A stretch of 64,000 nucleotides of DNA from contig NC_044925.1 in the NCBI RefSeq assembly GCF_003576645.1, forward strand, positions 7,379,254 through 7,443,253. The letters run 5' to 3'. This DNA is from Ipomoea triloba (lineage: Eukaryota > Streptophyta > Magnoliopsida > Solanales > Convolvulaceae). The notes below the pieces were generated by a model. That model made no database searches. It saw only the letters and a program-made list of their open reading frames with translations, and was not told the origin of the DNA. This document shows, in pieces, positions 260 to 58,000 of this stretch (the stretch's first letter is position 1; the number at the start of each line of letters is the position of its first letter). Position numbers and translations under genes: made by a program.

Positions 260-2759
260 TCATATCATTGGGTTGTATGGCGTTGCCACCAAGTAAAGGT
301 CATCCTTCTTTCCAGCAGTGATTCCTGAGGATTCAGTTAAGTCCAAACCTTTAGAATACTGAGGTTCTTGAGGGAGTTCCCAATCAAAATGGAATAGCAA
401 TTTGGCTAACGGAAGAATAACGTTTGCCAAACCAAACGACATCCCGGGACATATCCTCCTCCCGCCCCCAAACGGGAGGAACTCGAAGTTATTCCCCGAG
501 AAATCGATGGAACTATTCTCAAATCTCTCAGGTAAAAAGCTCTCAGCATGGTCCCAGTAGGCAGGATCCCTACTTATGGACCACACGTTGACCAAAACCC
601 AGGTTTTGGGTGGGATTTTGTAGCCGTTGATCTCGGTTTCCTCCCGGCATTCTCGAGGGATTAAGAGTGGCGAAGGGGGATGGAGACGGAGAGTTTCTTT
701 GATCACAAGTTTCAGGTATTTAAGATCCTCCACGTCTTCTTCGTTGAAATCGCCTTTAAAAGCCTGTCTAACTTCAGCTTGAGCCTTGGCTAGTATGCTA
801 GGATTTCTCAACATTTCTACCATTGCCCACACCACTGTAGTGGATGAAGTCTCTGTTCCAGCAGTAAATAAATCCTGCATGATATGGGCGTCCAAACATT
901 ATTAGCTTTAGAGTTATTAATACCCGATTTAGTCATCAGCTGTAGTAGTTTTACTCGATTTAGTCTTAATCGATTTTTTGTGGTCGATCAATTAAATGAT
1001 CTATTAATATAGCTTGGTAATATCATTGACTATAGTAATTTTAGTCTTGGACTATGATAATTTTATCCAATTTAATTTTTGACTATAGTGGTTTTATCCA
1101 ATTTAATCATTAACTATAGTGATTTTTATGATTTAGTCCGTGATTCTAACAATTGATGACTCAATTGGGTAAAATAGTCAAAATTGTGTACCTAATTAAG
1201 CACAAAAAGTAGTTTAGAACTAAATCTAAAAAACCACTATAGTGGACTAAATTGGATATTAATTCTGCATGTAATAATGTAATATAATATAATGCACTTA
1301 CAAACACAATAGCCTTAACGTTTTGGATGGTGATGGGGAACTGAAAGCCGTCATGGGTATCCATCATCCTGAGCAGAACGTCGATCAAATCCTCGCTACC
1401 ACCGGTGTCCACCTTCTTTCCGGCCGTCAAAGTCTTCTTCTGCCGCCTATGATCGCCGATGACGTTTTCCACGATAGCGTCAATCCTGTTGTGCACTCTC
1501 AAGATTTTGCGCTTCATTCCGCTGAGGCCGTGGAGGAATTTGAGAGAGGGAAAAATGTCGGCCACGTCGAACCCTCCCAACAAGATCAACACCTCCTTTA
1601 TGAGGGCGATGAACTCGTCCTGCTCCTTGAACACACACCCGAACGCCGACCGGCACGTCATCGAGCTCGTGAACTGGAACACCTTTTCCGTGAGATTCAC
1701 CGGCCGCCCGCCGGACAACCGAATAAAGTCTAAGAGCCGGGATACCTGCACAAATATATTAAAGAAGCTAAGATCGATATTATTATTATCATTATTATTA
1801 TTATTATTAGAAAAAATATCAAATAAGCTCCTAAACTGTACCTACAAAGTCAATTAAGTCTCTAAATTTTTAACATTATAAATTGGGCCAATGAAGCCTA
1901 AGAAAAGGTAATTAACCTGCTATTATAAGTCATTTTAGTTCAGACATGAAAATCTAGCGATCGGCGATGGTGTGGCCATTCCTGGTGAAAAGCGACCGGT
2001 CACATTTCCTAACTGATCGCCTTCCGTTGGGGAAGGTGACCAATCGCCTTCTCCATGGAATGGAGACAAGTGACAGTTCGATTGTTGCCGGTAGCCGTAT
2101 TTTTACGCCAAAACTGAAATGACTTGCAATGACGAGTCATTTACTGGTTTTTGAATTTCATAATTATCCCAATTTAACATATTAAATGGTGTAGTTGCAT
2201 TTTTTAAAAGTTTAAGTGCCTAATTGACTTTTTAGGTAAAGTTTAGGATTTTATTTGAACTTTTTTCCATATATATATATATACACGGTATACCTACCTC
2301 CTGGCGCCTAATGGTGCTGAAACCCTGAACATTTCTAGTGCTAAGAACTTCAACCACACATATTTTGCGCATTTGTCTCCAATAATCTCCGTAAGGACAG
2401 AAGACGATGTCAGAGCTGTTATAGGACACAATGTCGGCGAGCAACATTTTGGGGCGGGAAGCAAACGCGAGGTCGTGGGTCTTTAGCACAGATTTGGCCA
2501 TGTCCGGAGACGACACCACCACCGCACAAACTTGGCCTAATTGGACGTGCATGAGGGGACCATATTTCTGGGCTAAGTCCCTTAATCGACGGAGCGGAGA
2601 CGATGCTGCACCACCGTATAGGTGGTGCATGCTTCCCAGGAAAGGCAACCTCCACGGTCCGGGCGGCAATTTTTTACCTCTCCACTTGTTCTGCTCTCTA
2701 GCTACCAACGCAAGGAAGAGTAGTAGTAAGAAACAGAACAAGTTGATGAGGAGCTCCAT
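260..2759 (-). CDS. Cytochrome P450, CYP71 clan (CYP71D-like), three exons, apparently intact
   Basis: Exons on the minus strand are 2759-2298, 1745-1302 and 874-260, joined at GT-AG borders in phase 0 to give 506 residues, a normal P450 length. Residues 1-20 form a hydrophobic ER anchor, followed by the LPPGP hinge (31-35). Other landmarks are the C-helix WRQMRK, the I-helix oxygen-binding AGTETS (307-312), ExxR (E362, R365), PERF (417-420) and the haem loop [10 protein letters not shown] with Cys444. All key residues are present. Known for the family: ER-bound monooxygenases using NADPH-P450 reductase; CYP71D members often oxidise sesquiterpenes or monoterpenes. The divergent terpene synthase next door suggests a terpene substrate (inference). 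Odd point: intron 2 (875-1301) sits at the usual CYP71 position before the I-helix, but intron 1 (1746-2297) is extra and is mostly one MITE. Intron 2 is full of decayed inverted ACTATAG-containing motifs. Subfamily and substrate are not certain. Confidence 0.93.
1810..2267. mobile_element. Mutator-type MITE filling P450 intron 1
   Basis: The first and last ~64 bases are inverted copies at roughly 80% identity; both arms contain CAAATAA, CCTAAACT, TACCTA and AAGTCAATTA in order. A further inner inverted pair (AAGTCATTTTAG against CTGAAATGACTT) lies near 1930 and 2120. The element makes up about 458 of the 552 bases of the intron. Both flanks are simple repeats (ATT)n and (AT)n, so no clear target duplication can be read. 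Confidence 0.7.
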
Positions 2760-2818
2760 TAATAATAATAATATTGCTTACTTGTTATGGTATGTATTGT
2801 AGATAGATGATGGTATGG

Positions 2819-2826
2819 TATTTATA
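2819..2826 (-). promoter_or_regulatory. TATA box of the P450 gene
   Basis: TATAAATA on the minus strand, about 60 bases upstream of the P450 start codon, at a normal core-promoter distance. It mirrors the TATAAATA of the divergent terpene synthase. Confidence 0.7.
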
Positions 2827-3171
2827 GCAGCAGCTAGCCATCAAATTTGACCTGAATCCAGAGAATTGAAAAACGTGCAAGCTAATAGCTAGAAGAACGT
2901 ACGTAGACCAAAACCCAGCTGCAAATGTAATGAAGTTAAAACAAGAGTGGTCTGTGCGTGGTTGGCAATGCATGAACGGTGGTGAAGATATGTTTTCAAA
3001 AAAAAAAAAAGGGTGGCGAAGATATGATACAAGTAGCTTTCGTCTTTTGAATAATCATATCGTATGTTTAATTTTGCGGCGGTAGCTATAATGACTAATG
3101 AGCTTTTGAAAAAATATAACAAAAAATAACAAAAAACTTTTGGCCTGTCTTAATTAAATAGAAAATGACAA

Positions 3172-3236
<65 letters not shown>

Positions 3237-3632
3237 CTTTTACATTTTGAATTAAAAGTATTGCATTTTTATTTTTCTTTATAAGTAGCAAACATGGGCC
3301 AACATTACTAAAATGTAATACTTTTGATGAAAGTTTAATACTTTTCACTTATTTTATAAGTAACAAATACTTATTTTATTTCTAATTGGTATAACAATTT
3401 TTTGTGTAAGTACGTATTACAATTTACAATCTCTTATTATTGACTTGACTCGATTCGACTTGTCTCACAGATAAGGATCCGTGAGATGGTCTCCGTACAC
3501 AAATGTGACACTATTTTTTAGTCTAAGTATTACAGTTTCATATTAACTTCTCACACAAATGTGATCCTATATATATAGGAGACAGATCAATTGAGAACTA
3601 CATGCCCAGAATAAAAATGAGAACCCATTGTA

Positions 3633-3785
3633 GTCATCCATCTGTCTAGATCTAGCACTTGCACCAATTATTTACACTTATAACACATATTACTTGTACT
3701 AAAGTTTGAATTATTTATAAAAATGTCACCGCATTTTTTTAAAAAAAGTTACATATAATTTGTTAGATCTAGACAGATGAATGAC
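3633..3785. repeat. Inverted-repeat (MITE-like) segment
   Basis: A 22-base arm at 3633-3654, containing CATCTGTCTAGATCTA, is matched in reverse complement at 3764-3785 with one mismatch, with about 109 bases between them. No clear target duplication was found, so the class is unknown. It lies inside promoter copy 1 and contributes to the insertion block there. Confidence 0.5.
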
Positions 3786-3904
3786 TGCAATCAATTTTCA
3801 TTCCTCTCTTAGGCATTTGTTCTATCCTGACTGCGTAAGCACACACACATACGTACGTACGTACATACATACATACGTACATACATATATATATATATAT
3901 ATAT

Positions 3905-4265
3905 AGGAATCTATTCAAATGTGGTCGCGCCTTCCCGTGGGATCGGTGCTGTTCGCATGAGTCAATGTTAGAAAATGCACCACTCAATGTTAGAAAACGC
4001 ACCACAATGAAAATACACAAAAACACCAAAACACACACCACACGCCTAAAATAATGCACCATAACTCTCCTGCCCCTAATGGTGCATTTGCTAACACTGT
4101 GTGGTGTATATTTTCATACCTAGTGTTGTGTTTTTTGGTGATGCATACCTAATGATGCATATTTGTATGGTGCATTTTTTAACATTGAGTGGTGTATATT
4201 TGTATACATAGTAGTGCGGTCGCACTGATCACACGTTAAGGAGCTACAACACATGATTATGACTC
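3905..4265. mobile_element. Dispersed repeat of the CACCACTCAATGTTAG family, copy A
   Basis: This block is highly similar to 32550-32875: the same ordered strings occur in both, including ACTCAATGTTAGAAAA, CCTAATGGTGCATTT, AACACTGTGTGGTGTATAT, TTTTTGGTGATGC and CGCACGTTAAGG-like ends. It carries internal inverted copies of the CACCACTCAATGTTAG motif. Both copies abut AT-microsatellites. It is non-coding and reads as a small non-autonomous element; class uncertain (MITE or Helitron-like). Confidence 0.6.
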
Positions 4266-4268
4266 TCT

Positions 4269-4272
<4 letters not shown>

Positions 4273-4325
<53 letters not shown>
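4273..4325. repeat. (TA)n microsatellite
   Basis: About 26 uninterrupted TA units at the right edge of the copy A repeat. Similar tracts occur at 6003-6040 (TPS intron 1) and 38451-38502. Confidence 0.95.
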
Positions 4326-4330
<5 letters not shown>

Positions 4331-4532
4331 GTTAACTGTTTGTATTTGTCAAGTCCTTAATATAAGAAGTTTAGTTGAAGTGTATTTTAAAATACAGACG
4401 ACATATATTTATGTTTAAGGATAAGGAATGAAATAAAGTCCAAATTAAATTCTTCAGTCAGCTGCTGCTCGTGGGAACATAGATTTTTCTTCATCCGTCA
4501 GATAGTTGAGATTACTTACGTACAAGGTATAG

Positions 4533-5640
4533 CTAGTAGAACGTGGACCAAAACCCAGCTATATTCTACGTACTACAAATGTAGTGATGTTAAAACAAGA
4601 GTCGTCTATGGTTGGCACTTGGCAATGCATGAACGGCGAAGATATATATGAAACAGTGGGAACTTTCCTCTTTTAAATAATCATATGGTATACCATACAT
4701 TTTAATAATTATCAATTTTTCTATGCAAACTTAAACATTAATTCTTGTTAGTTAGACGGATCCGAGTCAAGATTAAATATAATACATACAGTAAAAAATG
4801 CATGTAATACTAATATGAATAACATGTTTATTACTACTTATATTAAAAAATTAATACTTTTGAATATATATATAGATTTAAAAGTATTACATTTTTCTTT
4901 AAAAATATTACATTTTCGCTTACAAGTAATAAACACGGACTAACATTACTTATAAGCGTGGTTGAAAAAACCACTAGGCGTTCGGGACGCCTAGGTGGAT
5001 CGGAGATTAATATAGGCACCCGTGCATTTTTTATTTTATTTTTATTTTTATATATATTTTAAAAATTTTAAGACTTGATAATTATAACCTATTTAATACT
5101 CCGTATTTTAATATTTAATACTAAAATATTAAATATTAACTTAAAAAATATCTAAAGTTTGAACAATTTAGGAATGTAACAATAGCTAATCGACCGACTA
5201 GGCGACCTAGTTGGTGCCTAGTCGTCCTAGTCGATGCCTAGGCGGCACTTAAACGGCCTAGTCAGCCACCTAGCCGATCAGCCGCCTAGACCACCAATTA
5301 TGATGATACGCTAGGTAGCAATATAATTAGTCATTGCCTAGATAGGATTTTTGCAATACTGCTTATAAGGAAAAATGTAATACTTTTGATGAAAATATAA
5401 TAGTTTTACGTCAAAATATAAAAGTATATCAATTGGTTAGCTGTTTCTATTTTCTAAGTCCTTATTAATATAAGAAGTTTATTTGAAGTGTATTTTAAGA
5501 TACAGATGACATAGATTTATGTTTAAGGATAAGGAATGAAACAAAGTCCAAATTTAATTCTTCCGTCAGCTGCTGCTCTGCTTGTGGGAACATAGATTTT
5601 TCTTCATCAGCCCCAACGTCAGCTAGTTCAGATTAAGTTA
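4533..5640. repeat. Copy 2 of the tandemly duplicated promoter unit
   Basis: Blocks P (4533-4655), R (4850-4955 and 5370-5425) and T (5431-5632) repeat the order seen in copy 1. R is interrupted by a 405-bp hAT-like insertion, whose empty site is visible in copy 1 near 3310. Copy 2 lies immediately upstream of the terpene synthase, and copy 1 immediately upstream of the P450. Confidence 0.8.
4957..5361. mobile_element. Non-autonomous hAT-like MITE with 8-bp target duplication
   Basis: The 405-bp element is flanked by an exact 8-base duplication, CTTATAAG (4949-4956 and 5362-5369). Ends are imperfect inverted repeats: CGTGGTTGAAAAAACC at the left and, in reverse complement, CAGTATTGCAAAAATCC at the right. 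The interior is rich in CCTAGGCG-like motifs on both strands. An 8-bp TSD is typical of hAT. The duplicate promoter copy shows the uninterrupted site. Confidence 0.8.
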
Positions 5641-5817
5641 TCAGATTGGCCTTATTTTGTTGAATTGAATATGCCTTATTTTGGCATGCATGCAGATCAG
5701 AATTTATACGTACCCATCCTAGGAAAACAAATTAAATTTTAACTTATTTCCTTAATGGCGGCGGCGGCGGCGGCTGTAGATAGGATAGGATAGTATCGTA
5801 TGAGAACCTCGTATGGG

Positions 5818-5825
5818 TATAAATA
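5818..5825 (+). promoter_or_regulatory. TATA box of the terpene synthase gene
   Basis: TATAAATA lies about 90 bases upstream of the ATG at 5916. A short (GGC)n run lies at 5757-5773 just upstream, and a CATGCATG-type motif near 5684. Confidence 0.75.
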
Positions 5826-5915
5826 CTGTTGCCTTGCCCTTCATTTCTTCATCGCAACATAACCTAGCTACCTGGCCTCATAGTTGATCTGATCTCTACT
5901 CCCGCTTGCAATATA

Positions 5916-6000
5916 ATGGAAAACAATATCCTACGCCCTGTCGTCAACTTCTCTCCTAGTTTATGGGGTGATCAATTCCATTCATTCTCAATAGACAATC

Positions 6001-6042
<42 letters not shown>

Positions 6043-8746
6043 CTACCTCTGTCCCATTTTACCGGTCTTACTTTCTTTTTTAATTTGTTCCAAAATGTTG
6101 TCCTATTTTCAAAATTGAACATCACCATCATTCTACTTTTCCTAATTTTAACTTTTGCTTTTTTTAATAGTTTTATTTTCAAAAGTGAAAAAATTGGGGG
6201 CATAATTAGGAAACACATCACACTTACTTTAATTTCTTAAAAAGCGAGCAAAAAGCAAATGAGACATCTAATTCGGAATGGAGGGAGTATATATATTAGA
6301 CATTATTTATTTATTTAGTAGGTGGCCTATCTGGTATGCATAGAATCTATCAGAAACCTAACCTCCTAGTAGTGAAAGTGGAAATTTACTTTTTTAAACG
6401 GTAAATTTGTAGAGTGTTAGTAGTTTTGTCTCATACTTAACTCATAATTCAATCTATATGGTGTATTGGTATTATTCTGAGAGTACCTAACTTTATGTGC
6501 TATATGATACATGTCTTGTATCCCATTAATACATGCTTTATATAATGTATGGCCTATCTGGAATATAGACTAACCCTAAAAGTATGTTCTCCCAACAAAC
6601 ACTTGCACCATATAATTAAGGCTCATAATATATAATATATACATATTATATGGGAAAACCTTACACTAGCTTCTAATTTAATAAATATATACTTGCAGGT
6701 TGCTGAAGAATACGCAAGAGAGATTGAAATTTTGAAGGAGCAAATAAGGGCTACGCTGCAGATTGCTTCAGGAAGCAGTAATGTGGCGGAGAAATTAAAA
6801 TTCATCGATCTGCTAGAACGCCTTGGAATAGCATATCACTTTGAGAAAGAGATTGATGATCAACTCCAACATATTTATACCCACCACCCCATGCACTCGC
6901 ATGATTTGGAAACCGTTGCTCTTCAATTTCGATTGCTCAGGCAACATGGTTACAAAATTTCTACTGGTAATTTCTTAATTTATATATATATTAGCCGGGA
7001 TTATCACTAAATTAACTAATTTTGAGTACTACTGACTTTGTACAACGTGCATGTAGATATTTTCAGCAACTTTGTTGACAGCAATGGAAAATTCAGAGAC
7101 ACCTTTGATGTGAAGGGTCTGCTGAGCTTGTACGAAGCTTCGTACGTGAGCACACACGGTGACGACATTTTAGAAGGTGTGGTCGCTTTTGCGGCGACTC
7201 GTCTCCGATCTGCAGCACCACTTCTAGAACCCAACAGCACTTTAAAAAAGCTGGTGACGCATGCCCTGGATCAGCCATTGCACACCGGCATGCCCAGAAT
7301 CGAAACGCGCTTTTTCATATCGGTGTACGAAGAAGAAGAGGACTCGTCCAGGAACGATGTGTTGCTGCGCTTTGCAAAATTGGATTTCAATTTGCTGCAG
7401 ATGTTGCACAAGCAAGAGCTCAGTGAAGTATCAAGGTTTGTTCAATTCGTCATACAATTATATATAGCTAATTTAATTTGTTATTATCACTTTGTTGAAT
7501 TATATTATATTGTTGAACAAGCATGCATGTGTACGTGTATGTAGGTGGTGGAAAGAGTTGGACTTTGCCACAACACTTCCTTATGCAAGGGATAGAGCAG
7601 TTGAATGCTATTTTTGGGCACTAGGAGTATATTTTGAGCCTCACTATTCTAAGGCTCGTGTCATGCTTGCCAAAAACATTTCGATTGTTTCGATTTTAGA
7701 TGACACCTATGATGCTTATGGTACCTTAGAAGAATTAGATGTATACACAGATGTCATACAAAGGTATAATATACACAAAAATATACTAATGTATATATGT
7801 TCATTTATATATGTATGTCGGTGTCATTTTTCTAATTAAGTTTATCCTTTTTTATGGCCTTTAATTAGGTGGGACATTAGTGAAATTGATCGGCTGCCAA
7901 ACTATATGAAAATTAGCTATAAAGCTCTGTTAGAACTTTTCGATGAAGATGAGAAGGATCTCTCAAAAGAAGGAAGATCATATGTCGTCCAACATGCAAT
8001 GGAAAGAGTACGTAAGAATAGTAAATTTGTTATATGATGTCTTATTTGGTTTGATCAAATCTTATATAAAACTGATTAATCTATTAAATATATAGATGAA
8101 GGAACTTGTGAGATGCTACTTTATTGAAGCCAAGTGGTTCATTGAAGGAGAAAAGCCTGTGTTTGCTGAATACCTTAGAAATGCATTTGTTAGTTGCACT
8201 TACTATTTGCTGGCCACAATATCTTGCTATGGCTTGAAGTCTGCTGACGACAAAGTATTTGATTGGTTAATGCAAAATCCTAGAATTCTTGAAGCAAGTG
8301 TTACATTATGCAGGGTCATCGACGACATAGCCACCTTTGATGTAAGCTTACAGATGTCTATATTTTAAACATAGATCAAACAAATTTAATTCCTTTAGAT
8401 GTACCTTAACATGAACTACTTATTATTATTATTGATTCTATTTTGATAGGTTGAGAAAGATAGAGGGCAAGTTACAACAGGCATTGAGTGCTACATGAAG
8501 GAGTATTGCGTATCACAAGAAAAGGCAATGGAAAAGTTTCAAGAAATGGCTGAACTTGGCCTGAAGGATTTGAATGAAGGGCTCATTAAACCAACACCTG
8601 TTCCTGCAGAGATTCTCTTACGTATCGTGAATCTTGCTCGAATTGTTTTTGTCACATACCAGCACAACCAAGACGGATATACTCATCCTGAAAAAGTTCT
8701 GAAACCTCACATTATTGCATTAGTCGTGGATCCTATACCAGTATAA
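5916..8746 (+). CDS. Sesquiterpene synthase, TPS-a class, seven exons, apparently intact
   Basis: Exons: 5916-6002, 6699-6966, 7057-7435, 7545-7763, 7869-8007, 8096-8341 and 8450-8746. All junctions are GT-AG and in frame, giving 544 residues, the usual length and exon count for class III plant TPS. Residues 1-29 carry the RP(x8)W motif (R7, W17) and no plastid transit peptide, which points to a cytosolic enzyme using farnesyl diphosphate. Metal-binding motifs are complete: RDR (260-262), DDTYD (297-301) and the NSE/DTE-type motif DDIATFDVE (440-448). The gene diverges from a CYP71D-like P450, so oxidation of its product by that enzyme is plausible (inference). Intron 1 holds a Stowaway MITE and a (TA)n tract. 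AATAAA signals follow at about 8790 and 8930. Product identity cannot be read from sequence. The start codon is the only ATG before the conserved N-terminal motif. Confidence 0.95.
6043..6287. mobile_element. Stowaway (Tc1/mariner) MITE in TPS intron 1
   Basis: Ends are CTACCTCTGTCCC and GGAATGGAGGGAG, inverted and flanked by TA (6041-6042 and 6288-6289). The body is the reverse complement of the element at 29003-29253. It lies wholly within intron 1, next to a (TA)n tract (6003-6040). Confidence 0.85.
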
Positions 8747-19325: not shown

Positions 19326-20870
19326 GGGATTTTGAAGAAGTTGGATATTGGGTATGAGAGTCAGTTCAAAAGGCTTAGGGATTATGCTCAAGCGTGCTTG
19401 AATTCAAATCCAAGCTCTACAATGAAGATAAAAATAGCCAGGACTTTGAAAAATTCACCATTGGTGTTTGAGAGGATATATGTTTGTTTTATTGCAATGA
19501 AGAAAGTTTTTTTTATAGGGTTGTAGGAGGTTTATTGGACTCAATGACTGCTTTTTGAAAGAGAGGTTGAAGGGTGAAATACTCACAACTGTGGGTAGAG
19601 ATGGGAACAATCGAATGTGTACCCAATTGCTTGGGCTGTAGTTGAGATTGAGAATAGCTCATCATGGATATGATTTCTAAAGCTTTTAAAGGAATATTTG
19701 GGAGTTGTGGACAACACTCAATGGACCTTAATGAGTGATCAGCAGAAGGTAAATCCACTTGAATTCTTTATTTATTGAAATATGTTACTTTACAATATAC
19801 TTGTTATGATTAACTTGAATTTGAATTTGCAAGGGTTATGTAATGAAATACAAGAAGTATTCCCGGGTAGAAATTGTGCTAGGCATGTCCATGCCAACTA
19901 GAGTAAGAAGAACGGAGGGAAGGTTCTAAAGGGTCATTTCTGGCAGATTGCAAAGACCCCTAATCAAGCACTACTTGCAGAGAAGTTGAAAGCTTTGGAG
20001 AAGGTAGATACTACAACAGTTCAAGTTCTAAACAAATACTCTATGTAGTTCAGGTGTAAAGCATTATTCAAAAATGAAGTTAAATGTGACTTGGAGGATA
20101 ACAATTTGAGTGAGACATTCAACAAGACATTGTTGAATGTAAGGTCAAAGAATATTATTCCAATGCTAGAAGATATAAGAGTTTGTGATGAAGATGATTG
20201 CAAAGAAGAAAGCAAATGCTGAAAGATGGAGTGGGAATTATAGGTCATTTGTGATGAAGAAATTGAATGAAAACATACTTGGCAGTGCAGTTGGGAAGTT
20301 GTCTGCAATGAAGTTGATGGATATGAGGTAAAAAATGGAAGATTTCAATTCAAGATCAATTTAGAGTTGAGGACTTGTTATTGTAAACTTTGACAATTGA
20401 CTAGTTTGCCATGTTCTCATTTCATTCGTGCTATATTTCACAAGGGGCATCAACTAGATGAGTACATCTATGAATGGTACAGTAAGGAGATGTACTTGAA
20501 GACTTATGAGCATGTAATAGAGCCAATGAATGGAGAAATGTTTTGGCTAAGAATTGAAGGGAATGAGATACATGCTCCAGTTCCAAGGAAGATGACTGGT
20601 ATACCTAAGAAATAAAGAAAGCTTGAAGATGATGAAAAGAACAAAGACAAAAACAAATTGAGTATAGAGGTTAGAAAGTTGTTAAGGAAAGGAAGAATAA
20701 TAACTTGTCAACTGTGCAACAAAAGATTTTGTCCTAGTTTGTCAAGTCAACAAGTACAATATGGTATTTCTACTACTGTTAGAGGAAGAGGTAGAGCTTA
20801 GACTGGTACTGTTCAAACAGAAAGAGGGACGATATTAACTCAAGAAAGCACTCTTGGAATGTCAGGTAAT
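19326..20870 (+). pseudogene. MuDR-type MULE transposase, degraded
   Basis: Fragments in shifting frames keep the family order: the SNPSSTMKI...SPLVFERIYVCF motif before the catalytic core, then FIGLNDCFLK-like, TTVGRDGNN, WTLMSDQQK, a C-terminal SWIM-type LTSLPCSHFIRAIFHKGHQ (20397-20455), and a zinc-knuckle remnant (TCQLCNKRFCP, about 20705-20735) with an Arg/Gly tail. Stops and frameshifts occur throughout, including at 19525 and 19660. The N-terminal PB1-like exon seen in MULE-2 is missing. Non-functional. Confidence 0.8.
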
Positions 20871-28024: not shown

Positions 28025-29002
28025 ACTGAAGGCACAATGTACAGATAGCAACTGTATAGCAATTGAAATATCTCTCTCTCTTTCTCTCTCACTCTGGGGG
28101 GTGTTTGGGCAGTACTAACGTTAATCTGCTGGGTTTTTGTATCAGTATGTATACTGAATTCCACAATGTAACTTTATTATGTGTCATTGTCTCTCGTCTT
28201 TTATTGCGGACGCAGAATTGTTCTTTCGTATGGTAGTGTCCTTCCCATGAGGCCATGACACGAATATTATTGGAAGGACAAAGAAGCAATAAGTGTTTTA
28301 TTATTTTTCCTTCTTGATTTGGATGATCTGGACTTTATTACTCTATAGTACAGAGAATGATAAATAAGCACTTTTAATTGTAGTAAATATACAATTTGAT
28401 CATTCAATTAAAAACAATGTGCAATTGAATCATTCTACTTTATAAAATTGTACAATTCATCCGTCACAATTCTTGCAAATTATTATTATTATTATTTGAC
28501 AAATTCTCTTATGAGACCGTCCGACGGTTTTTGGTTTTCCTATGAGACCGTCTTACGGCTACGAGGGGTCAAATTTTTTATAATTATTATATATATTCTC
28601 ACATAAGTATTACAATTTTTTTTTTATCATAAGTAACTTTTTAACTCTTAATCTTATACTTTAATTTAAAAGTATTATATTTTTTTATCATAAGTATTGT
28701 ATTTTCTCTTATAAATAATACGGAGTAAATAATAATTGAACAATTTATCCATGATTAGTATTACAATTTTTTTTTTTTGCAAGCAGTATTACAATTTTTC
28801 TTAAGTAACTATTCAACTCTAAATATTACATTTTGATTTAAAAGTATTATATTTTTCCTCATAAGTAACTTTTCACCTATTAATTTTACATTTTGATTTA
28901 AAAGTATTATATTTTTTCATCAAAAGTATCACATTTTTCGTCATAAGTATTATACTTTCTCTCATAGCTAACAATAAAATAATATATCAATGATAAGTAT
29001 TA
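28025..29002. other. NAGK 3' flank and AT-rich dispersed repeat
   Basis: No gene. From about 28600 the motif AAAAGTATTATATTTTT...CATAAGTAAC recurs many times. The same motif forms block R in the P450/TPS intergenic region (3232-3420, 4850-4950), which indicates a dispersed AT-rich repeat family. A pair of AGACCGTC(C/T)GACGG-like motifs lies at 28508-28562. Confidence 0.5.
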
Positions 29003-29253
29003 CTCCCTACGTCCCGAATTGGATGTCTCATTTGCTTTTTGCACGCTTTTTAAGAAATTATAGTAAATGTGATGTGCTTTCCAATTATGCCCCAATCTTT
29101 TCACTTTTGGAAATAAAAACAATAAAGAAAGCAAAAGTCATAAGGGTAAATTAGGAAAAATAGAATGATAGTGATGTTCAATTTTGGAAAGAGGATAACA
29201 TTTTGGGACAAACTAAAAAGGAAAGTAAGACAGGTAAAATGGGATAGAGGGAT
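29003..29253. mobile_element. Stowaway (Tc1/mariner) MITE
   Basis: Starts CTCCCTACGTCCCG after TA (29001-29002) and ends GGGATAGAGGGAT before TA. It is the reverse-orientation relative of the MITE in TPS intron 1, sharing the GTGATGTGCTTTCC, AAGCAAAAGT and TGATGTTCAATTTTG segments. Confidence 0.85.
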
Positions 29254-32329: not shown

Positions 32330-32875
32330 TAAGTAAAATGCACCACTCAATGTTAATAAATACACCACACAAATATGCACTATTAGGTACACATCACCAA
32401 AAACACACCACTACGTATGAAAAAAATACACCACACAGTGTTAAGAAATGCACAATTAAAAACAGGGGAGTTATGAGGTGTTTTTATGCATTTTCATTGT
32501 GGTGCATTTCTTAACATTGAGTGATGTAAACCGCACGGCCGCACGGGAAGGCGCAGCCACATTCTCGTGCGGTCGGTGCGGTTCACACCACTCAATGTTA
32601 GAAAACACACCACAATGAAAATACACAAAAACACCATAAAACACACCACACACCCAAAATAATGCACTATAACTCCTCTGCTCCTAATGGTGCATTTAGT
32701 AACACTGTGTGGTGTATATTTGCATACCTAGTGGTGTGTTTTTTGGTGATGCGTACCTAATGATGCATATTTGAGTGGTGCATTTTCTAACATTGAGTGT
32801 TGTATATTTGTATACATAGTGGTGAGACCGCACTGACCGCACGTTAAGGGGCGGTCATACCTGATTATGACCCTA
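32330..32875. mobile_element. Dispersed repeat of the CACCACTCAATGTTAG family, copies B and C
   Basis: 32550-32875 matches copy A in the P450/TPS intergenic region. 32330-32540 is an inverted, shortened relative carrying the same ACCACTCAATGTTA and CACAGTGTTAAGAAATGCAC motifs. The centre holds GCACGGCCGCACGGG and CGTGCGGTCGGTGCGG palindromic sequence. Confidence 0.6.
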
Positions 32876-33017
32876 TATATATATACATACATATATATAT
32901 GTGTGTATGTATACATACACACATATATATATGTATGTATATATATATATATATATGTATGTATATATGTATATATATGTATGTATATATGTATATATAT
33001 GTATGTATATATGTATG

Positions 33018-34076: not shown

Positions 34077-34503
34077 TAATTACTAAAGTAAGAAATAAAA
34101 TTATCATATTAACAAAATTTGTGTTCATAAATATTTTTTAAAAAATAAATTAAATAAATACATACATATACTTATGCACTATATTAATCATACAAAATTT
34201 ATATAATACTTTTTTAGTTTCTAAATATAATTATTTTAATTATAAATCTATCAATATCTATACTTCCTACTAATAAAAAACAAATCCTACATTTGCAATT
34301 GCCAGCCTAAACTATTACTATATAAAATCTAATAACTATAATAGGTTAGTTAAGCTACTAATTGCATAAATATTAATATAATTACAAATAAACATGGTAT
34401 AAAAGTATAATTGCACAATATTAGTATAATTACCTAATAATTACTATGGTAATTAAGAAATTAATTACACAGATAATAGTATAATTGACTAATAATTATT
34501 ATG
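34077..34503. other. AT-rich intergenic, no gene
   Basis: Low-complexity A/T sequence with repeated TAGTATAATTG(A/C)CTAATAATTA motifs, which recur at 35640-35700 on the far side of the foldback element. Confidence 0.5.
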
Positions 34504-34512
34504 TTAATTAAA

Positions 34513-35437
34513 GGGAAAATGGCATCTTTAGTCCCTGAGTTATAGGGGTAGTGTAGACTCAGTCCCTGAGTTATGGCCGTATGCGAGTTTAGTCCCTCAG
34601 TTATTCGCGAAGTGGCGAGTTTAGTCCCTGGCCATTAAATTTGACGAAAAAATTTAAAAATAATCAAAATTTGAGGGATAAAATAGGAAATTCACATTTT
34701 ATTCTTCTTCTTATATCAAAACCACTTTTACAATATTATTTTTCACTTCTTAGCCTAATTATTTTCAAGATTCTTCAATTTTAAAAGCATTTTAATAACT
34801 TTCAAATGACTTGTTAGGAACCTGACTCTCGTATAACGCACTTAAAACTTAGCACAAATAAAGAAATGCATGATCATTGTATTTAGGTGTATGAAACACA
34901 CTATCCTAACAAGTTTTTATTTTTTTACTAAGCAACAAATGTAATAAAATTAAAAATTTTGAGATTTTTTTACACACTATCCTATCTCAAAATTTTTAAT
35001 TTTATTACATTTGTTGCTTAGTAAAAAAATAAAAACTTGTTAGGATAGTGTGTTTCATACACCTAAATACAATGATCATGCATTTCTTTATTTGTGCTAA
35101 GTTTTAAGTGTGTTATACGAGAGTCAGGTTCCTAACAAGTCATTTGAAAGTTATTAAAATTCTTTTAAAATTGAAGAATCTTGAAAATAATTAGGCTAAG
35201 AAGTGCAAAAATAATATTGTAAAAGTGGTTTTGATATAAGAAGAAGAATAAAATGTGAATTTCCTATTTTATCCCTCAAATTTTGATTATTTTTAAATTT
35301 TTTCGTCAAATTTAATGGCCAGGGACTAAACTCGCCACTTCGCGAATAACTGAGGGACTAAACTCGCATACGGCCATAACTCAGGGACTGAGTCTACACT
35401 ACCCCTATAACTCAGGGACTAAAGATGCCATTTTCCC
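34513..35437. mobile_element. 925-bp Mutator-type foldback element, near-perfect palindrome
   Basis: Two arms of about 453 bases (34513-34965 and 34984-35437) are reverse complements with only a few mismatches, separated by about 18 bases. Ends are GGGAAAATGGCATC inverted, and an exact 9-base target duplication, TTAATTAAA, flanks the element (34504-34512, 35438-35446). The 9-bp TSD and TIR start fit Mutator-type elements. There is no coding sequence. Confidence 0.92.
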
Positions 35438-35755
35438 TTAATTAAACTAATAATTATACAAATATTAGTATAATTACAATTAAACATGTGTTGTTAGATT
35501 TTTTTTTATAATAATTGCAATTAATTCATTCAGATATGGAGGGCGATGAAAAAACTAAATGCGATATGGTGAAAATAAATATATACTTAAGATATAAAAG
35601 TATAATTGCACATATATTAGTGTAATTGACTAATAATAATTGCCTAATAATTATTATGGTAATTAAGCTAAACATTGGTTGTTGGATTTATTTTTATAAT
35701 AATTACAATTAAATTATTTCTCATTTTTCCATATTTATTTTAGTAATAATATAAT

Positions 35756-41299: not shown

Positions 41300-41497
41300 A
41301 AAAAATTGAGTCGGGCATTTCAAATTCGAATATTCGAGTCGAATCGAATATATTCGAATAAATTGATCGAATCGAATTCGAATCAAATTTAAGATTCGAA
41401 TATTAAACGAATCCAAATTCGAATATCTATCAAAATAGTCGAATTCGAATCGAATATTCAGATATTTGACTCAATTCGATTCGTTTACACCCCTATT
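41300..41497. mobile_element. Fragment of a TTCGAAT-rich hAT-like MITE
   Basis: Dense GAATTCGAAT palindromes, ending in TTTACACCCCTA, the same terminal type as the hAT MITE at 17011-17492. The left terminus and TSD could not be found. Confidence 0.45.
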
Positions 41498-41499
41498 TG

Positions 41500-41985
41500 T
41501 AAATAGACGACGTTGTAGGGTATTTAAGTAGTTTTTAAGTTACTTACAACGTCGGCTATTTACAAATAGCCGACGTTGTAGGGTATTTTAGTAGTTTTCA
41601 AATTACCTACAACGTCGGCTATTTGTAAATAACCGACGTTGTAGGGTATTTTAGTAGTTTTTAAATTACCTACAACGTCGGCTATTTGTAAATAGCCGAC
41701 GTTGTAGGGTATTTTAGTAGTTTTCAAATTACCTACAACGTCGGCTATTTGTAAATAGCCGACGTTGTAGGGTATTTTATATGTTTTTAAGATACCTACA
41801 ACGTCGGCTATTTGTAAATAGTCGACGTTGTATGGGTACCTTACAACGTCAGTTAACATATAGCCGACGTTGTATATGTACCTTACAATGTCGGCTAACT
41901 TTTAGCCGACGTTGTATGTGTACACTTACAACGTCGGCCAGATCAACGTCGGCTTTTAGCCGACGTTAAAGGGTTTATTTAGCTG
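41500..41985. repeat. Right subterminal palindrome array of the CACTA element
   Basis: About seven head-to-tail units of roughly 63 bp, each holding the hairpin ACAACGTCGGCTA...TAGCCGACGTTGT around TTTGTAAA. Related to, but distinct in spacing from, the left array. Confidence 0.9.
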
Positions 41986-46793: not shown

Positions 46794-49737
46794 ATGATTG
46801 ACTCTATGGAATTAATAATTCACCATGTTGGTAACTTTGTGAAAAAACCTAGGCTACAATATTTGAATGGTGAGACTGAGGTAGTGCATTTGGACCCAGA
46901 CTTTATATGTTATCCCCATTTACTTAAATATATAACTGACAAAACATATGGAAAAATAGTCTCACTTACATACAAGTTGCCTTCTGAACCCTTTGAAGCT
47001 TTAAAACTATTAAACAATGATAATGCTAGTAGTCTACACTTAGCTCATATTAGTAGTCAACATAAGAAGTTTGAGATTTATGTTGAACATGGAATAGATG
47101 ACCCTCAAGTAATTGGTTTATGTTTACCGGGGCCTGAAGGGGGTGAAACTCAAGGTGAGGATGAGTTTGAGGAAGAAGTAGGGGGTGAGCATGGGGGGAG
47201 TGAATTTGAGGGAGATGCTGAAATTGTGAGTGAAGAAGGGACAAATGTTGATATTGGGAGTGAAATAGAAAGTGACACTGAGGGTGAAAGTGACACTAAC
47301 ATTGAGCAGGGAGTTGGCAGTGATAGTGACTAAGAGAGAGAGCATAACAGTATTCCAAATTAGGGCAAGGATAAGAGAAAAAGAAGAGCAAGATTAGATG
47401 AGTCAAATGTACCACAGTATGTGCCACCATAAGATATTCCTGAAGAAGATGCCCAAGATTCTGAATATTATGATTCAGAAGATCCACCTACTGTCCAAGA
47501 AGATTTGGAGAATGATGGAGAGAATGAAGTTCAGTCTAAGTTCAATGAGAAGTACCCAAAGTTCAACCCTAAATCCGATCCACCTATTATTGAATTAGGT
47601 ATGTGCAATTTATTCTCTAAATATTTTGTTATTCATTTCATGAATCTATTTTTTTAAAGTTGATAAATCTATTTTATGAATCTGTTTTTTGCCCAATTTT
47701 ATGAATCTGTTTTTTCCATAACTTTATGAATATGTTTTTGCCATCAGTTATATTTCGGAGTTTTTGCCATCAGTTTTATCATTAGTTTTGCCATCAGTAT
47801 TATGAATCTGTTTTTTGAATATGTTAATGAATCTATTTTAGGCTTTATGAATCTGTTTTTTTTTTATTTATGAATATGAATCTGGTTATGAATCTGTTTT
47901 TGGCTTTATGAATTTGTTAATGAATCTATTTTAGGCTTTATGAATTTGTTTTCTGATTTGTCACCAGTTTATGAATGTATTTTGGCTTTATGAATTTGTT
48001 AATGAATCTATTTTAGGCTTTATGAATATGTTATTTGATTTATGAATATGAATCTGTTTTTGGCTTTGTGAATCTGTTAATGAATCTATTTTACGCTTTA
48101 TGAATCTGTTTTCTGTTTTGCCACCAGTTTATGAATCTGTTTTTTGTTTTTTTTTTTTTTTGAATCTATTTGAATTAGGTATGTATTTTGATGACAATGT
48201 GCAATTTAAGCTTGGTATGATTAGTTATGCAATACACACAATGAGGGATTTATTTTGAAAAAAATAGATTATAGTATGTTAGGGCAAATTCACCCTTGGT
48301 ATTTGAGCAAATTTATGTATGCTTTAATCCCATGAAAAATGGATTCTTAGCGGGGCATAGGAAGTTTATTGGACTAGATGGATGCTTCTTGAAGGGAAAA
48401 TTGAAGGGTGAAATCCTCACATCTGTTGGAAGGGATGAGAATAATCAGATGTACCTAATTGCTTGGGCTGTTGTGGAGATTGAAAATAGTTCTTCATGGA
48501 GGTGGTTTTTGGAGCTTCTAAAGGCTGATTTGGAGATTGTGGACAACAGTGAATGGACACTAATGAGTGATCAACAAAAGGTAATTAACCCAATTTCATT
48601 TGTGCATATCAGTTTCTATTCATTTTTCTGCCTTATTCATTGTAGGGGTTATCTAATGTCATTCAAGATCTATTCCCAGGAGTTCAACACAGAAATTGTC
48701 CTAGGCATGTACATGCCAATTGGAGTAAGAGCAACAGAGAAAAAGTTTTGAAGGGTCACTTTTGGCAAATTGCGAAGACACCAAATGAAGCACAACTTGC
48801 TGAAAAATGAAAATATGAAGGCTTTAAAGAAAATTGATTCTGTTGCCTGGGCTAGACTTGACAAATATCCAAGCAAAGTTGTGCTTCAAGGAAGATGTCA
48901 AGTGTGACATGGTAGATAACAACCTAAGTGAGGCATTCAACAGAACTTTGTTGAGTGCAAGACCAAAGTTTATTATTCCATTGCTTGAGGATATATGAGT
49001 TGCAACAATGAAGAGGGTAGCAAAGAAAAGATCAATGGCTGAAAAATGGAGAGGAAATTACGGGTCATCGGTGTTGAAGAAACTCAATGAAAGCATACTT
49101 GGGAGTGCAGGTTGGGATGTGGCATTCAATGGAGTGGAGGGATATGAGATAAAAAAGGGTAGATTTCAGTTCAAGGTAAATTTGTAGTTGAGGACTTGTT
49201 CTTGTAGGCTTTGGCAATTGACCGAGATTCCATGTCGTCATGGCATTTGTGCCATATTCCACAAAGGACATCAGCTTGAAGATTACATCCATGAATCCTA
49301 CAGCAAGGAGCTTTACTTAAAGACTTATGAGCATGTAATCCAACCAATTAATGGAGAAATATTTTGGCCAAATACTCAAGGTGATGAGATAATGCTCCTG
49401 CTCCAAAAAAGATGACTAGTAGGGTAAAAAAGAAAAAAAAAAGCTTGAAGATAATGAAAAACAAAAGCAGAAAATCAGTTCAGAGGTTAAGAAATTGTCT
49501 AGAAAATGAAGGATTATGACATGTCAATTATACACGGGAAAGGGACATAATAAACGATTTTGTCCTACACTCTCAAGCCAACAATCAGAATCTGCCAGTT
49601 CTTCTGCTGTTAGAGGAAGAGGAAGAGGACATACTGCTGCAAGGGGGAGAGGTAGAGGAAAAGGGAGAGGAAGTGGAAGAGGGACATGCTTATCACAGGA
49701 AAGCTTAGTTGGAGTTTCAGGTAAATTAATTGAGTAG
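46794..49737 (+). pseudogene. MuDR-type MULE transposase, degraded
   Basis: The 5' exon (46794-47333) is open and gives a PB1-like N-terminal domain (MELIIHHVGNFVKKPRLQYL, ...DDPQVIGLCLPGPEGG), then an acidic Glu/Asp/Gly tract and stops. After a 600-base minisatellite the core resumes at 48290 (SPLVFEQIYVCFNPMKNGFL, FIGLDGCFLKG, TSVGRDENNQMYLIAWAVVE, WTLMSDQQK), then a SWIM-type C-terminus (CSCRLWQLTEIPCRHGICAI, 49195-49253), a zinc knuckle with one Cys lost (TCQLYTGKGHNKRFCP) and an Arg/Gly-rich tail (49600-49690). Frameshifts at about 48640, 48800 and 49190 break it. The region between the PB1-like domain and the core is partly deleted. Known role of the family: cut-and-paste transposition. 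Confidence 0.85.
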
Positions 49738-53768: not shown

Positions 53769-53992
53769 AAATATTTACCTAGTAAACAATTGTTTCACCA
53801 CTTTTAAGATTCACACAACTAGTTAATTAATGCGGTTTTCTCTCTAGCTTCCCTAGAGAGTTTTCTCCCTACAGTTTTCTAGGGTAGTTTGCTTTTTGTC
53901 TTGTGCAGTTTTCTTGGTTGTCTGACTTGTTTCATTGTTTTCTTCAGTGTCTTCACCATTGGTTTGTTTGTAATTCTCTGTTGTTTCGTGTC

Positions 53993-54991
53993 ATGGATGT
54001 TCGAACTTTGGAGGAGGGGTGTGCAGGTTTGACTTTGGATATCGAAGAGGATGGGGGTTTGGATGCGCCGGATTTTGCTCAGCCTAGTGGAAGTGTTACG
54101 TACTATGAACTTGTTGGAAGGTTTCTCACAGATCGTTCAATCACATTTGAACATATGCAACAGGTTCTAACTTCAGTATGGCAGCCTGTAATGGGAGTTA
54201 GAATTGTTCCGCTGAATGATAACCTCTTTGTTTTCCAGTTTCCTCATTCACGTGATATGACTCGGGTGCTAACTGAAGGCCCTTGGTCTTTTGAGAATCA
54301 GACTTTGGTTTGCAAACAGGTGCCTAAAGGTTGTCGTCCTGAGGACGTGTGTTTAGATACGCTGGATTACTGGGTGCAGATCCATGATGTTCCTACCATG
54401 TACGCCCAGTCTGATTTCATTGAAAAAATAGGGAACTAGGTTGGCCATTTCATAAAGGCGGATCCTATCAACTTTGGTGGTAGTTGGCGCAGTTATTTCC
54501 GTGTTCGTGTTACGCTTAATCTATGCGAGCCTATCAAACGTAAGATGAAGATCCGTATGAAGGATGGTTCTACTCATTGGGTCTCTTTCAAATATGAGAG
54601 ACTAAATATCTTCTGCTTCTGTTGTGGGTTAATTGGACATTCGGATGTCTTTTGCCGAAAAGCGTTTGAGGAAGGTATATAACCAAAGGATTATCCCTAT
54701 GGTTCTTGGTTGAGGGCTGGATCCAAGAGACAGGTCAAGCCTGTGGGGGCTAAATGGATTTTACCGGAACTTCCAATGCAGTCGGCGTGCGTTCCGACTA
54801 CCCCAACAATCCCTACGACAAATCCTATACAGATTGAGGACTCTAGTATTGTGCATGCTGATTTGAAGCGGAGACGGGAGGATGTTGTTAGTGGGGATGA
54901 TCCCTTAACAGTTGATGTTACTATGGCCGATGCTTCCAAAAGCAAAGGTGAGGTTTCAAAAAACTTGGTTTTGGCAGGTCTGGAATCCTAG
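53993..54991 (+). pseudogene. LINE ORF1 (DUF4283 and zinc knuckle), two internal stops
   Basis: Starts MDVRTLEEGCAGLTL at 53993. A DUF4283-type RNA-binding region follows (LVGRFLTDRSI, WSFENQTLVCKQ, DYWVQIHDVP), then a zinc knuckle CFCCGLIGHSDVFC (about 54610-54655). A TAG at 54437 and a TAA at 54680 interrupt the same frame, and the frame then runs to 54991. The first stop falls where the family has Trp (IGN-W-VGHF). Known role: nucleic-acid chaperone of the LINE particle. Confidence 0.85.
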
Positions 54992-55005
54992 GCTCGCCTA
55001 GAGCA

Positions 55006-58000
55006 ATGAGTACTCTTAGTTTGAACTACCAGGGATTGGGTGGCCCTAGGACAGTTCGAGAACTATTGGGCTTTGTGTCCGCTAAACGAACCAACTTTGT
55101 CTTCCTCATGGAGACAAAGGCTAAGATGAATCAGTTAGAGCAGTTACGTTTTCGTTTGGGATATGAAGGTTTACTGGGTGTTGATAGAGTTGGTTTAGGG
55201 GGTGGTCTAGCCCTCCTATGGCAGAACTCGAATATGGCGGATCTTCTTAGTTATTCGAATAATCATATTGACGTTGTTGTGAATGTTGCTTCAAAATCGC
55301 CTTGGCGCCTTACATGTTTCTATGGATATCCGGAGCGGGCAAGGAGACAGCAAGCATGGGATTTTCTCCGGGATTTAAAGCGTCGATCATCCCTCCCTTG
55401 GGTTGTTATCGGCAATTTTAACGATCTTGCATGTCACTTTGAAAAAATAGGCGGTGTTGGTCATCCGGAAAATCTTATTCGTGGTTTTAATGACGCGCTC
55501 CAGGATTGTGAATTATTTGACTTGGCTACCGTGGTTATGGCTTTACTTGGGAGAGGGGTCGGGGTACTGATCATTGGATTGAAGAATGGCTCGATAGGGC
55601 AGTGTGCACCCCACATTGGCGTGATTTGTATAATGATGCTTCTATTCTTACTTTACATTCCATCTCTTCGGATCACAGTGCGATTTTTATGGACTTGAAC
55701 AGTCGCAATATTCATCATCCCCCCAGGCGGTTTAAATTTGAGGCTGCATGGCTACTTGATGCAAACTGTAAACAAGTGGTCGAAGCATCGTGGTAGTAGT
55801 CCACTGGCTTAGATTTCCAGCAGCGCATTCACAGTTGTGGTTAAGATCTCCGGCGATGGGGTGGAGATCACTTCCAAAAATTTGGTCGAAGAGCTCAGCA
55901 ACTTAAGGAGCGACTTGTATTATTGCGTGGTAGTCGTGATCCTATTGACGTTGCTGCATTCAAACACTTAGAAAAAGAGTTGAGTTTGCTCATCGCTCAA
56001 GAGGAAGTTTATTGGCGTCAGCGTTTGAAGCAGCTATGGTTGAAGGAAGGGGATCAAAATACAAAGTATTTTCATAGATTCGCAAGCCAAAGGAGAAAGT
56101 CCAATTTTTTGAGTAAACTGAAGGATACGGAGGGTCACTGGGTTGAGGGTGTTGCTATGCAGACGAAAATAATGAATTATTACTCCTCTATTTTCCAGTT
56201 GGTTGTTGTCGCTATTGACTTCTCACAGCTTTCGAATGATAAGCTCCTAAGGCCGATTGATCCTGATGAAGTGCGAAGTGCACTATTTTCCATGGCACCC
56301 GACAAAGCTCCCGGTCCCGATGGCATGTCACCAGCTTTTTATCAATCTTTTTGGGTGGTAATGGGGTATGATATCACTGCTTTTGTGTCTTCTTGTTTTG
56401 ATAATTGCATGTTACCCCCGGGGCTTAATAATACTGATGCGGTATTGATCCCAAAGAAGAAAGTGCCTGAAACTGTAGCAGACCTTAGACCGATTGCATT
56501 GTGTAATGTAATCTACAAAATCTTTGCTAAGGTTCTTGCCAATCGAATGAAACATGTACTTGATGATATTATTTCGTTAACTCAGAGTGCTTTTGTCCCG
56601 GATCGTTTGATTTCGGATAATATCATTGTTGCGGGAGAAATTGGGCATTACTTAAAAACTAAGCGTACAGGTATTACTGGTTGGGTTGCGCTTAAATTGG
56701 ACATGGCCAAAGCCTATGACCGAATGGAATGGCTTTTTTTGGAACATATGTTGCTTGCGTTGGGCTTTGCTAGACGTTGGGTTGACTTGGTGCTTCTATG
56801 TGTCAGGTCTGTTAATTATAATATTTTGGTGGACGGTGTTTCAGCGGGTATTGTGATCCCTACGAGAGGTATTCGGCAAGGGGACCCTATATCACCATAC
56901 TTGTTTATAGTGTGTGCAGAGGGGTTGTCCGTTCTACTTCAGAAACAAGAAGCCAGAGGTTTAATTCAAGGCATTAAAATTGCCAGGGGTGCACCATCGG
57001 TATCTCATCTGTTTTTCGCAGATGATAGTTTACTATTTTTTCGGGCAAATGATCAAGAGGCTCAGGAGGTGAAGGGATGTTTGGCTGCTTATAGTTCGAC
57101 ATCTGGCCAAGCAGTGAACTTTGATAAATCCAGCATCACGTTCAGTTCAAACACTGACCCTGGAACATGTAGATTTGTGGCAGGGGTTTTTGGTGTGCGT
57201 CAAGAAACAGATTTTGGAAAATACCTTGGCCTCCCTTCATTTCTAGGACGTAATAAGGCAGCTGTGTTCCGGTATGTTGAACAAAGGGTGCGTGATAGAG
57301 TTAATATGTGGCATAAAAAGTTTTTATCACGGGCTGGTAAAGAAGTATTGGTGAAGAGTATTGCCCATTCAGTATGTGCATCCATTGAGCGGATTCTGAA
57401 TAGATTTTGGTGGAGTAAAGCTTCGGGTGCTACGAGAGGAATTCATTGGCTTAGTTGGTCTAGGTTGTCGAAACCTAAGTGCAATGGAGGAATGGATTTC
57501 AAACGTTTACATGAGTTTAAAATATCTCACCCTTGGCTAAGCAGGGTTGGCGGTTGCTTGTGAATCCTACTTCGCTTGTAAGTCGCCTACTAAAAGCTAA
57601 ATATTATCCTCATGTTTGTTTCTTGGATGCCACCATGGGCCATAATCCCAGCTATCTATGGCGTAGCATCCTTGCTGCCCAAGATTTGCTGTGTCAAGGT
57701 GTTGTACGTCGTATTGGCAATGGCGTGGACACTCTAGTTTGGGATAAACCTTGGCTTGCTGACAATGAAAACCCACACTTGCACACGCCATGTGTGGCGG
57801 AATTACGAGAGGCAAGGGTATGTAATCTGCTTACTACTAATGGTACATGGGATGAAGATTTATTGCGTGACATTTTTGTTGAAGCTGACGTCCCCCGCAT
57901 TCTTCGCACCCCTATTTCGCCTGCTTATACGGATTCATGGTGCTGGAAACTTGACTTGCATGGATCCTACTCGGTACGTTCAGGCTACCATTTTCTAACA

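Follow-up and report, generated by a model that had tools for sequence, protein, structure and literature searches.

Does a sesquiterpene synthase gene lying head to head with a cytochrome P450 gene in Ipomoea triloba (Convolvulaceae, Solanales) belong with the synthase-oxygenase gene pairs of the Solanaceae, or are the two genes neighbours by chance? The pair occupies positions 260-8746, exactly from the P450 stop codon to the synthase stop codon, of a 64,000-nucleotide stretch of contig NC_044925.1 (positions 7,379,254 to 7,443,253), the whole of which we call the window. Nicotiana and Capsicum carry EAS-EAH gene pairs that make capsidiol (PMC9298681). A sequence-only reading of the Ipomoea locus had put it forward as a candidate two-gene terpenoid module, wording the cooperation of the two genes conditionally, and this proposal is supported by the kinship of both genes and by their linkage in relatives. 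On these grounds, the two divergent genes probably form a sesquiterpenoid module, one that corresponds in the Convolvulaceae to the EAS-EAH and premnaspirodiene synthase-oxygenase genes of the Solanaceae.

What we infer for the Ipomoea pair, namely its substrate, product, sequential action, co-regulation and role in defence, can be set out as a model. The cytosolic synthase would most likely act on farnesyl diphosphate, cyclising it to a bicyclic sesquiterpene of eremophilane or vetispirane type, the membrane-anchored P450 would then hydroxylate this hydrocarbon to yield a defence compound, and the intergenic space would set the transcription of both genes.

Gene structure and coding capacity

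The P450 gene (minus strand, 2759-260) and the TPS-a terpene synthase (TPS) gene (plus strand, 5916-8746) are divergent. After splicing, the synthase model comprises 544 amino acids in seven exons and the P450 model 506 amino acids in three exons, and all eight introns of the two genes have GT-AG borders. Over their full length both models match I. triloba predicted proteins at 100% identity, P0001 ("vetispiradiene synthase 3-like") for the synthase and P0121 ("premnaspirodiene oxygenase-like") for the P450, both of which lie on one contig of 29,809,665 bases. The synthase matched the Pfam domains PF01397, PF03936 and PF19086, and the P450 matched PF00067. The synthase motifs RPx8W, RxR (RDR), DDxxD (DDTYD) and the NSE/DTE metal motif (DDIATFDVE) are complete, as are the proline-rich hinge PPGP, AGTETS, ETLR (ExxR), PERF and the heme motif FxxGxRxCxG of the P450, which also has a hydrophobic N-terminus. 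The RPx8W motif begins at residue 7, apparently too close to the N-terminus for a plastid transit peptide to precede it; this feature and a seven-exon structure, which we take to characterise TPS-a sesquiterpene synthases, are both found here.

The P450 is 65% identical, at 95% coverage, to CYP71D20v2 (P0150), and thus lies above the identity of at least 55% to a named CYP71D by which members of this subfamily are named. It has Ser at the position of EAH S368 and Ala at that of EAH I486, two positions that presumably govern P450 specificity and at which we take CYP71D55 to have Val and Ala. The reactions of CYP71D20 and CYP71D55 are given in PMC5842272. The first P450 intron (1746-2297) follows residue 154, and the other is located just before the I-helix.

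The sequence-only reading had described an intact TPS-a synthase, on which frame, splice sites, motifs, Pfam domains and tree placement all agree, and an intact CYP71D-like P450, for which frame, splice sites, motifs, PF00067 and the identity to CYP71D20v2 speak likewise. Its head-to-head arrangement and its catalytic motifs in both genes were also borne out, every motif checked being complete, and the TATAAATA core that it assigned to each gene was found 67 bp upstream of the P450 start and 98 bp upstream of the synthase start. Its claim that nothing coding lies between the genes holds as far as tested: no Pfam match above the curated cut-off was obtained for the four open reading frames (ORFs) of at least 80 amino acids that lie wholly between them, and tblastn detected no additional TPS or P450 fragment anywhere in the window.

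Kinship and linkage in relatives

Phylogenetic trees were built from rows selected among the listed matches, the quick trees having 37 rows and the careful ones 34 of these; P0013, P0021 and P0063 (TPS) and P0143, P0273 and P0281 (P450) were left out, P0013 and P0273 being long-branched. In the synthase tree, with a Lamiales outgroup, the ten Convolvulaceae rows formed one clade (support 100/100) sister to 15 Solanaceae rows (99/96), the two clades were joined at 100/99, and the Ipomoea synthase grouped with EAS/HPS-type enzymes. The P450 tree likewise placed seven Convolvulaceae rows (100/100) as sister to 16 Solanaceae rows of EAH/HPO type (97/97); the joint branch had 99/96, and four further Solanaceae P450 rows fell outside it. 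Both Ipomoea genes are co-orthologous with the Solanaceae pair genes.

Within the Solanaceae, the synthases divide into a clade V, with a member (P0014) 92.1% identical to HPS, and a clade E, with a member (P0060) 92.2% identical to TEAS; the P450s divide into a clade A, which holds P0147 (named premnaspirodiene oxygenase), and a clade B, which holds CYP71D20v2. In the quick trees, support for the branches of these four clades ranged from 96 to 99. Among the matches listed, twenty Solanaceae contigs carried both genes, and they combined V with A (six contigs), E with B (13) or E with A (one, Lycium barbarum contig 153603042), an association with a Fisher p of 0.00018 by contig that is uncorrected for shared descent. 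Because the same clades occur together on 19 of the 20 contigs, the simplest reading is that both genes of one old pair were duplicated together in the Solanaceae after their split from the Convolvulaceae, and we infer that the Solanales ancestor already had both genes side by side.

Linkage was counted over the Solanaceae and Convolvulaceae matches among those listed, using the longest contig per 90% cluster and telling contigs apart by length; Cuscuta europaea, whose P450 was absent among the matches listed, stands outside the 29 species counted. A contig with relatives of both genes was present in 19 of these species (I. triloba, I. nil, Cuscuta campestris and 16 Solanaceae), the I. nil contig being one that carries the synthase P0005 with a distant P450 relative, P0273. 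Among the 22 chromosome-scale species, 15 had both on one chromosome, where a simple null of 12 chromosomes, with species treated as independent, gives a mean of 7.7 (P = 0.00046); by genus these included Capsicum (5 of 5), Nicotiana (2 of 3), Lycium (2 of 2), Anisodus (1 of 2) and Withania (1 of 1). The two genes have neighbouring locus tags in Datura stramonium (HAX54_040704/040705, on a 103-kb contig) and in Solanum stoloniferum (AABB24_038069/038070), and in another Datura model, P0170, a P450 is preceded or followed by a fused N-terminal TPS domain. Conservation of the pair in relatives, which the sequence-only reading had named as one of the points on which its proposal could fall, is favourable at the level of the order, by the Datura and S. 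stoloniferum tags, the C. campestris contig and the concordant trees.

Several observations weigh against this interpretation. Ten of the 29 species had no shared contig, including Cuscuta australis and C. epithymum by their listed relatives, and in Solanum only four of nine chromosome-scale species had both genes on one chromosome. Where a chromosome is shared, the locus tags can be far apart, by about 2,700 in Solanum pinnatisectum and about 200 in Anisodus acutangulus, so that a shared chromosome need not mean adjacency; we therefore rejected contig sharing as proof of adjacency and retained it as weak support only. When the clade association was collapsed to genus by combination, species not being independent, the Fisher p rose to 0.033, a value that likewise leaves shared descent in place, and in the quick P450 tree that included the I. 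nil P0273 the Convolvulaceae P450s were held together at a support of only 24. Within Ipomoea, no close I. nil P450 orthologue was present among the 120 of 7776 full-search matches listed, or among the 120 of 173 matches listed for a query of residues 150-330; the I. trifida and I. batatas P450s among the matches listed were partial models only (P0151 and P0237); no I. trifida or I. batatas synthase orthologue was found among the 120 matches listed; and the matches listed included no other Ipomoea species with an intact, annotated pair. Finally, the core W-box was not enriched in the gap between the genes (2.22 per kb, compared with 2.41 per kb in the window). W-box enrichment was rejected for the core motif; a longer form of the motif occurred at 1.58 per kb in the gap and 1.41 per kb in the window.

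For I. nil, the synthases P0002 (94% identity) and P0015 (truncated) lie on the same 3.25-Mb contig, and the nearest P450 among the matches listed was P0273, at 50% identity. The I. nil contig that joins P0273 to the synthase P0005 (contig 5952286) is possibly another Ipomoea pair.

Intergenic region and surrounding sequence

The sequence-only reading had missed the transposon-like inserts and the tandem duplication that the gap between the genes contains (Table 1). The two copies of the duplication (2856-4514 and 4493-5635) align as a chain of four collinear blocks. At their P450-side ends 154 of 172 aligned bases are identical, with 79 gap positions, and at their synthase-side ends 176 of 189, with 18 gap positions; the P450-side alignment scored 180, as against 54.5 for the best among 300 random places in the window. 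The insert in copy 2, which is flanked by the direct repeat CTTATAAG, is missing at the corresponding site in copy 1, and once the duplication and this insert are subtracted the start codons stand about 1,098 bp apart. The P450 and the synthase genes each appear to retain their own core promoter and a full copy of a once-common upstream region. Two adjacent pairs that became fused by loss of their inner genes would give the same intergenic order and may be its origin instead.

The TATAAATA word occurs only 18 times in the 64 kb, counting both strands, and two boxes so positioned are therefore not expected by chance. A GGC microsatellite at 5757-5774, whose minus strand reads as overlapping GCCGCC, is located 43 bp before the synthase TATA box; it was not used as evidence.

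Table 1. Features of the divergent pair and of the gap between its genes, in window coordinates
Feature	Position	Strand	Basis or detail
P450 exon 3, including stop codon and heme motif	260..874	-	splicing model
P450 exon 2	1302..1745	-	GT-AG on both sides
MITE-like inverted-repeat element, most of P450 intron 1 (1746-2297)	1799..2281; arms 1799-1873 and 2204-2281		two inverted-repeat arms
P450 exon 1, start codon 2759-2757, hydrophobic N-terminus	2298..2759	-	splicing model
TATAAATA TATA box of P450	2819..2826	-	5' end 67 bp before P450 start
Tandem duplication in the gap, copy 1 (toward P450)	2856..4514		about 965 bp of inserts inside (3346-4310)
Inverted-repeat element in copy 1	3862..4315		3978-4324 has 87% identical copy at 32586-32932
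Tandem duplication in the gap, copy 2 (toward synthase)	4493..5635		collinear with copy 1
Insert in copy 2	4957..5361		8-bp direct repeat CTTATAAG on either side (4949-4956, 5362-5369)
TATAAATA TATA box of synthase	5818..5825	+	5' end 98 bp before TPS start
TPS exon 1, start codon, RPx8W	5916..6002	+	splicing model
MITE-like element in TPS intron 1	6046..6316		85% identical copy at 28977-29250
TPS exon 2	6699..6966	+	splicing model
TPS exon 3	7057..7435	+	splicing model
TPS exon 4, RxR and DDTYD	7545..7763	+	splicing model
TPS exon 5	7869..8007	+	splicing model
TPS exon 6, most of DDIATFDVE motif	8096..8341	+	splicing model
TPS exon 7, metal motif end, Y520/D525 equivalents, stop codon	8450..8746	+	splicing model and residue comparison
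MITE, miniature inverted-repeat transposable element.

A strict plant biosynthetic gene cluster comprises at least three genes of distinct origin (PMC9298681). Between 8.8 and 64 kb we compared 18 of the 29 ORFs of at least 105 amino acids with Pfam, and the matches above the cut-off were a Copia gag, a Mutator-like element (MULE) transposase and parts of a long interspersed nuclear element (LINE); no third pathway gene was seen among these ORFs, a scan that genes with short exons could escape and that does not reach the left flank, which is beyond the window. No tRNA or known RNA was found in the window. The LINE parts lie in order on the plus strand at 53888-58960 (DUF4283, endonuclease, reverse transcriptase and RNase H-like ORFs), and the MULE transposase ORF is at 48275-48751; a copy of 48286-49527, at 74% identity, is present at 19451-20711. 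Two further stretches match their own reverse complements: 966 bp at 34492-35457, at 97%, and a dense tandem array at 41493-41938.

Synthase specificity and competing explanations

By sequence, the closest solved structures were those of vetispiradiene synthase (5jo7, 800 bits) and 5-epi-aristolochene synthase (5eas, 786 bits), to which the Ipomoea synthase is 67.9% and 67.0% (TEAS) identical, respectively. All 18 catalytic and pocket positions compared, including D444, Y520 and D525, are the same as in both enzymes. At the nine sites that we take to distinguish TEAS from HPS, the Ipomoea synthase is HPS-like at four, TEAS-like at three and like neither at two, so that it differs from TEAS at six and from HPS at five and has the full residue set of neither type; with residues so mixed, its product cannot be named. 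Moreover, all nine HPS residues are present in six Solanaceae rows (P0014, P0017, P0019, P0020, P0022 and P0030) that are variously named viridiflorene, humulene/caryophyllene or vetispiradiene synthase, or sesquiterpene synthase 31, and we therefore rejected a product call from these residues. Among 12 rows taken from the TEAS clade, the HPS residue occurs in 7 to 11 at eight of the nine sites and in six at site 439; in nine Lamiales rows, residue 439 is always Ile, and the other eight sites are all variable. Swapping nine sites turns TEAS into premnaspirodiene synthase (PMC3962182, PMC10992375), and D444 and Y520 are named as an acid-base pair of EAS (PMC10992375).

We somewhat favour an eremophilane or vetispirane skeleton for the product. 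A working module built on another skeleton, with an olefin of the germacrene, humulene/caryophyllene or viridiflorene type, is a possibility to be taken seriously, as the six differently named rows with all HPS residues show that the product is not dictated by this set; the retention of the D444 and Y520 equivalents argues for the EAS-like chemistry instead, yet these are kept in otherwise named rows too. We suggest, tentatively, that the Ipomoea pair is the unduplicated sister of an ancestral Solanales module, which in the Solanaceae became two pairs, of the premnaspirodiene and 5-epi-aristolochene synthase lineages, that the common promoter region in Ipomoea was later duplicated in tandem to give one copy per gene, and that the enzymes may keep a mixed activity. 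This activity may resemble premnaspirodiene, aristolochene and 4-epi-eremophilene formation, such a mixture having been suggested as possibly ancestral; 4-epi-eremophilene is the possibly ancestral TEAS/HPS activity proposed in PMC3962182.

It could also be that two functional enzymes of separate pathways became neighbours by chance, or that Ipomoea joined them independently. Plants have many TPS and CYP71 genes, frequently in tandem arrays, and the 10 species without a shared contig fit this, as does I. nil, where no close P450 was among the matches listed and hence none on the 3.25-Mb contig of its synthases. For the TPS genes of pepper, such numbers and arrays are also described in PMC10721696. 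We nevertheless regard chance as unlikely, since the joined lineages are the sisters of the Solanaceae pair genes, the clades match on 19 of 20 contigs, chromosomes are shared by 15 of 22 species against a null mean of 7.7, and the orientation is divergent, as implied by the bidirectional promoter of pepper (PMC9298681). Less likely still is a locus in decay, in which a once-working pair was uncoupled or silenced by transposon inserts and the intergenic duplication: MITE-like elements in both first introns and between the genes, transposon genes elsewhere in the window, the truncated I. nil synthase copy and the lack of a close I. nil P450 among the matches listed would suit it, whereas no damage was seen in either frame, any splice site, any motif checked or either TATA box. 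The reading as a divergent module of Solanaceae kinship remains the one we prefer.

Such pairs are known in the Solanaceae: pepper has three EAS-EAH pairs under a bidirectional promoter, EAS-EAH pairing is described, with the Solanaceae as example, as later-evolving, and MITEs are reported close to TPS-CYP pairs (PMC9298681); a capsidiol cluster is listed for pepper (PMC8418127), where an EAS-like TPS is co-expressed with CYP71D7 (PMC10721696). Like the EAS-EAH pairs of Nicotiana and Capsicum, the Ipomoea locus sets a TPS-a gene beside a CYP71D P450 gene with a common upstream region, and both genes are sister to the Solanaceae ones; unlike them, it belongs to the Convolvulaceae, has one pair in the window, is about 67% identical to TEAS and about 65% to CYP71D20v2, and departs from TEAS at six of nine specificity sites. 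With the HPS/CYP71D55 system of Hyoscyamus, which leads to solavetivone, it shares 5jo7 as top-scoring structure and a pathway indicated by the names of both I. triloba proteins, whereas its synthase is unlike HPS at five of the nine sites. Generic eudicot TPS-CYP71 pairs are also adjacent non-homologous genes with MITE-like elements (PMC9298681), but the Ipomoea pair has an arguable kinship to one specific Solanaceae pair. No paper on an Ipomoea TPS-P450 pair was found in a search judged by titles and the starts of abstracts, with few subscription journals covered. The EAS-EAH kind of pair is already known; a divergent co-orthologous pair outside the Solanaceae, and its duplicated promoter region, seem to be new.

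If this interpretation is true, a co-orthologous Convolvulaceae pair would date the pairing to before the split of Convolvulaceae and Solanaceae, and the two enzymes would have remained linked while the pair as a whole was duplicated. The evolution of specificity has been much studied in TEAS and HPS, and a natural outgroup synthase whose nine residues form a mosaic, lying beside its own P450, makes the idea of an ancestral activity directly testable. For sweet potato, a relative of I. triloba, the pair would be a candidate route to a defence compound.

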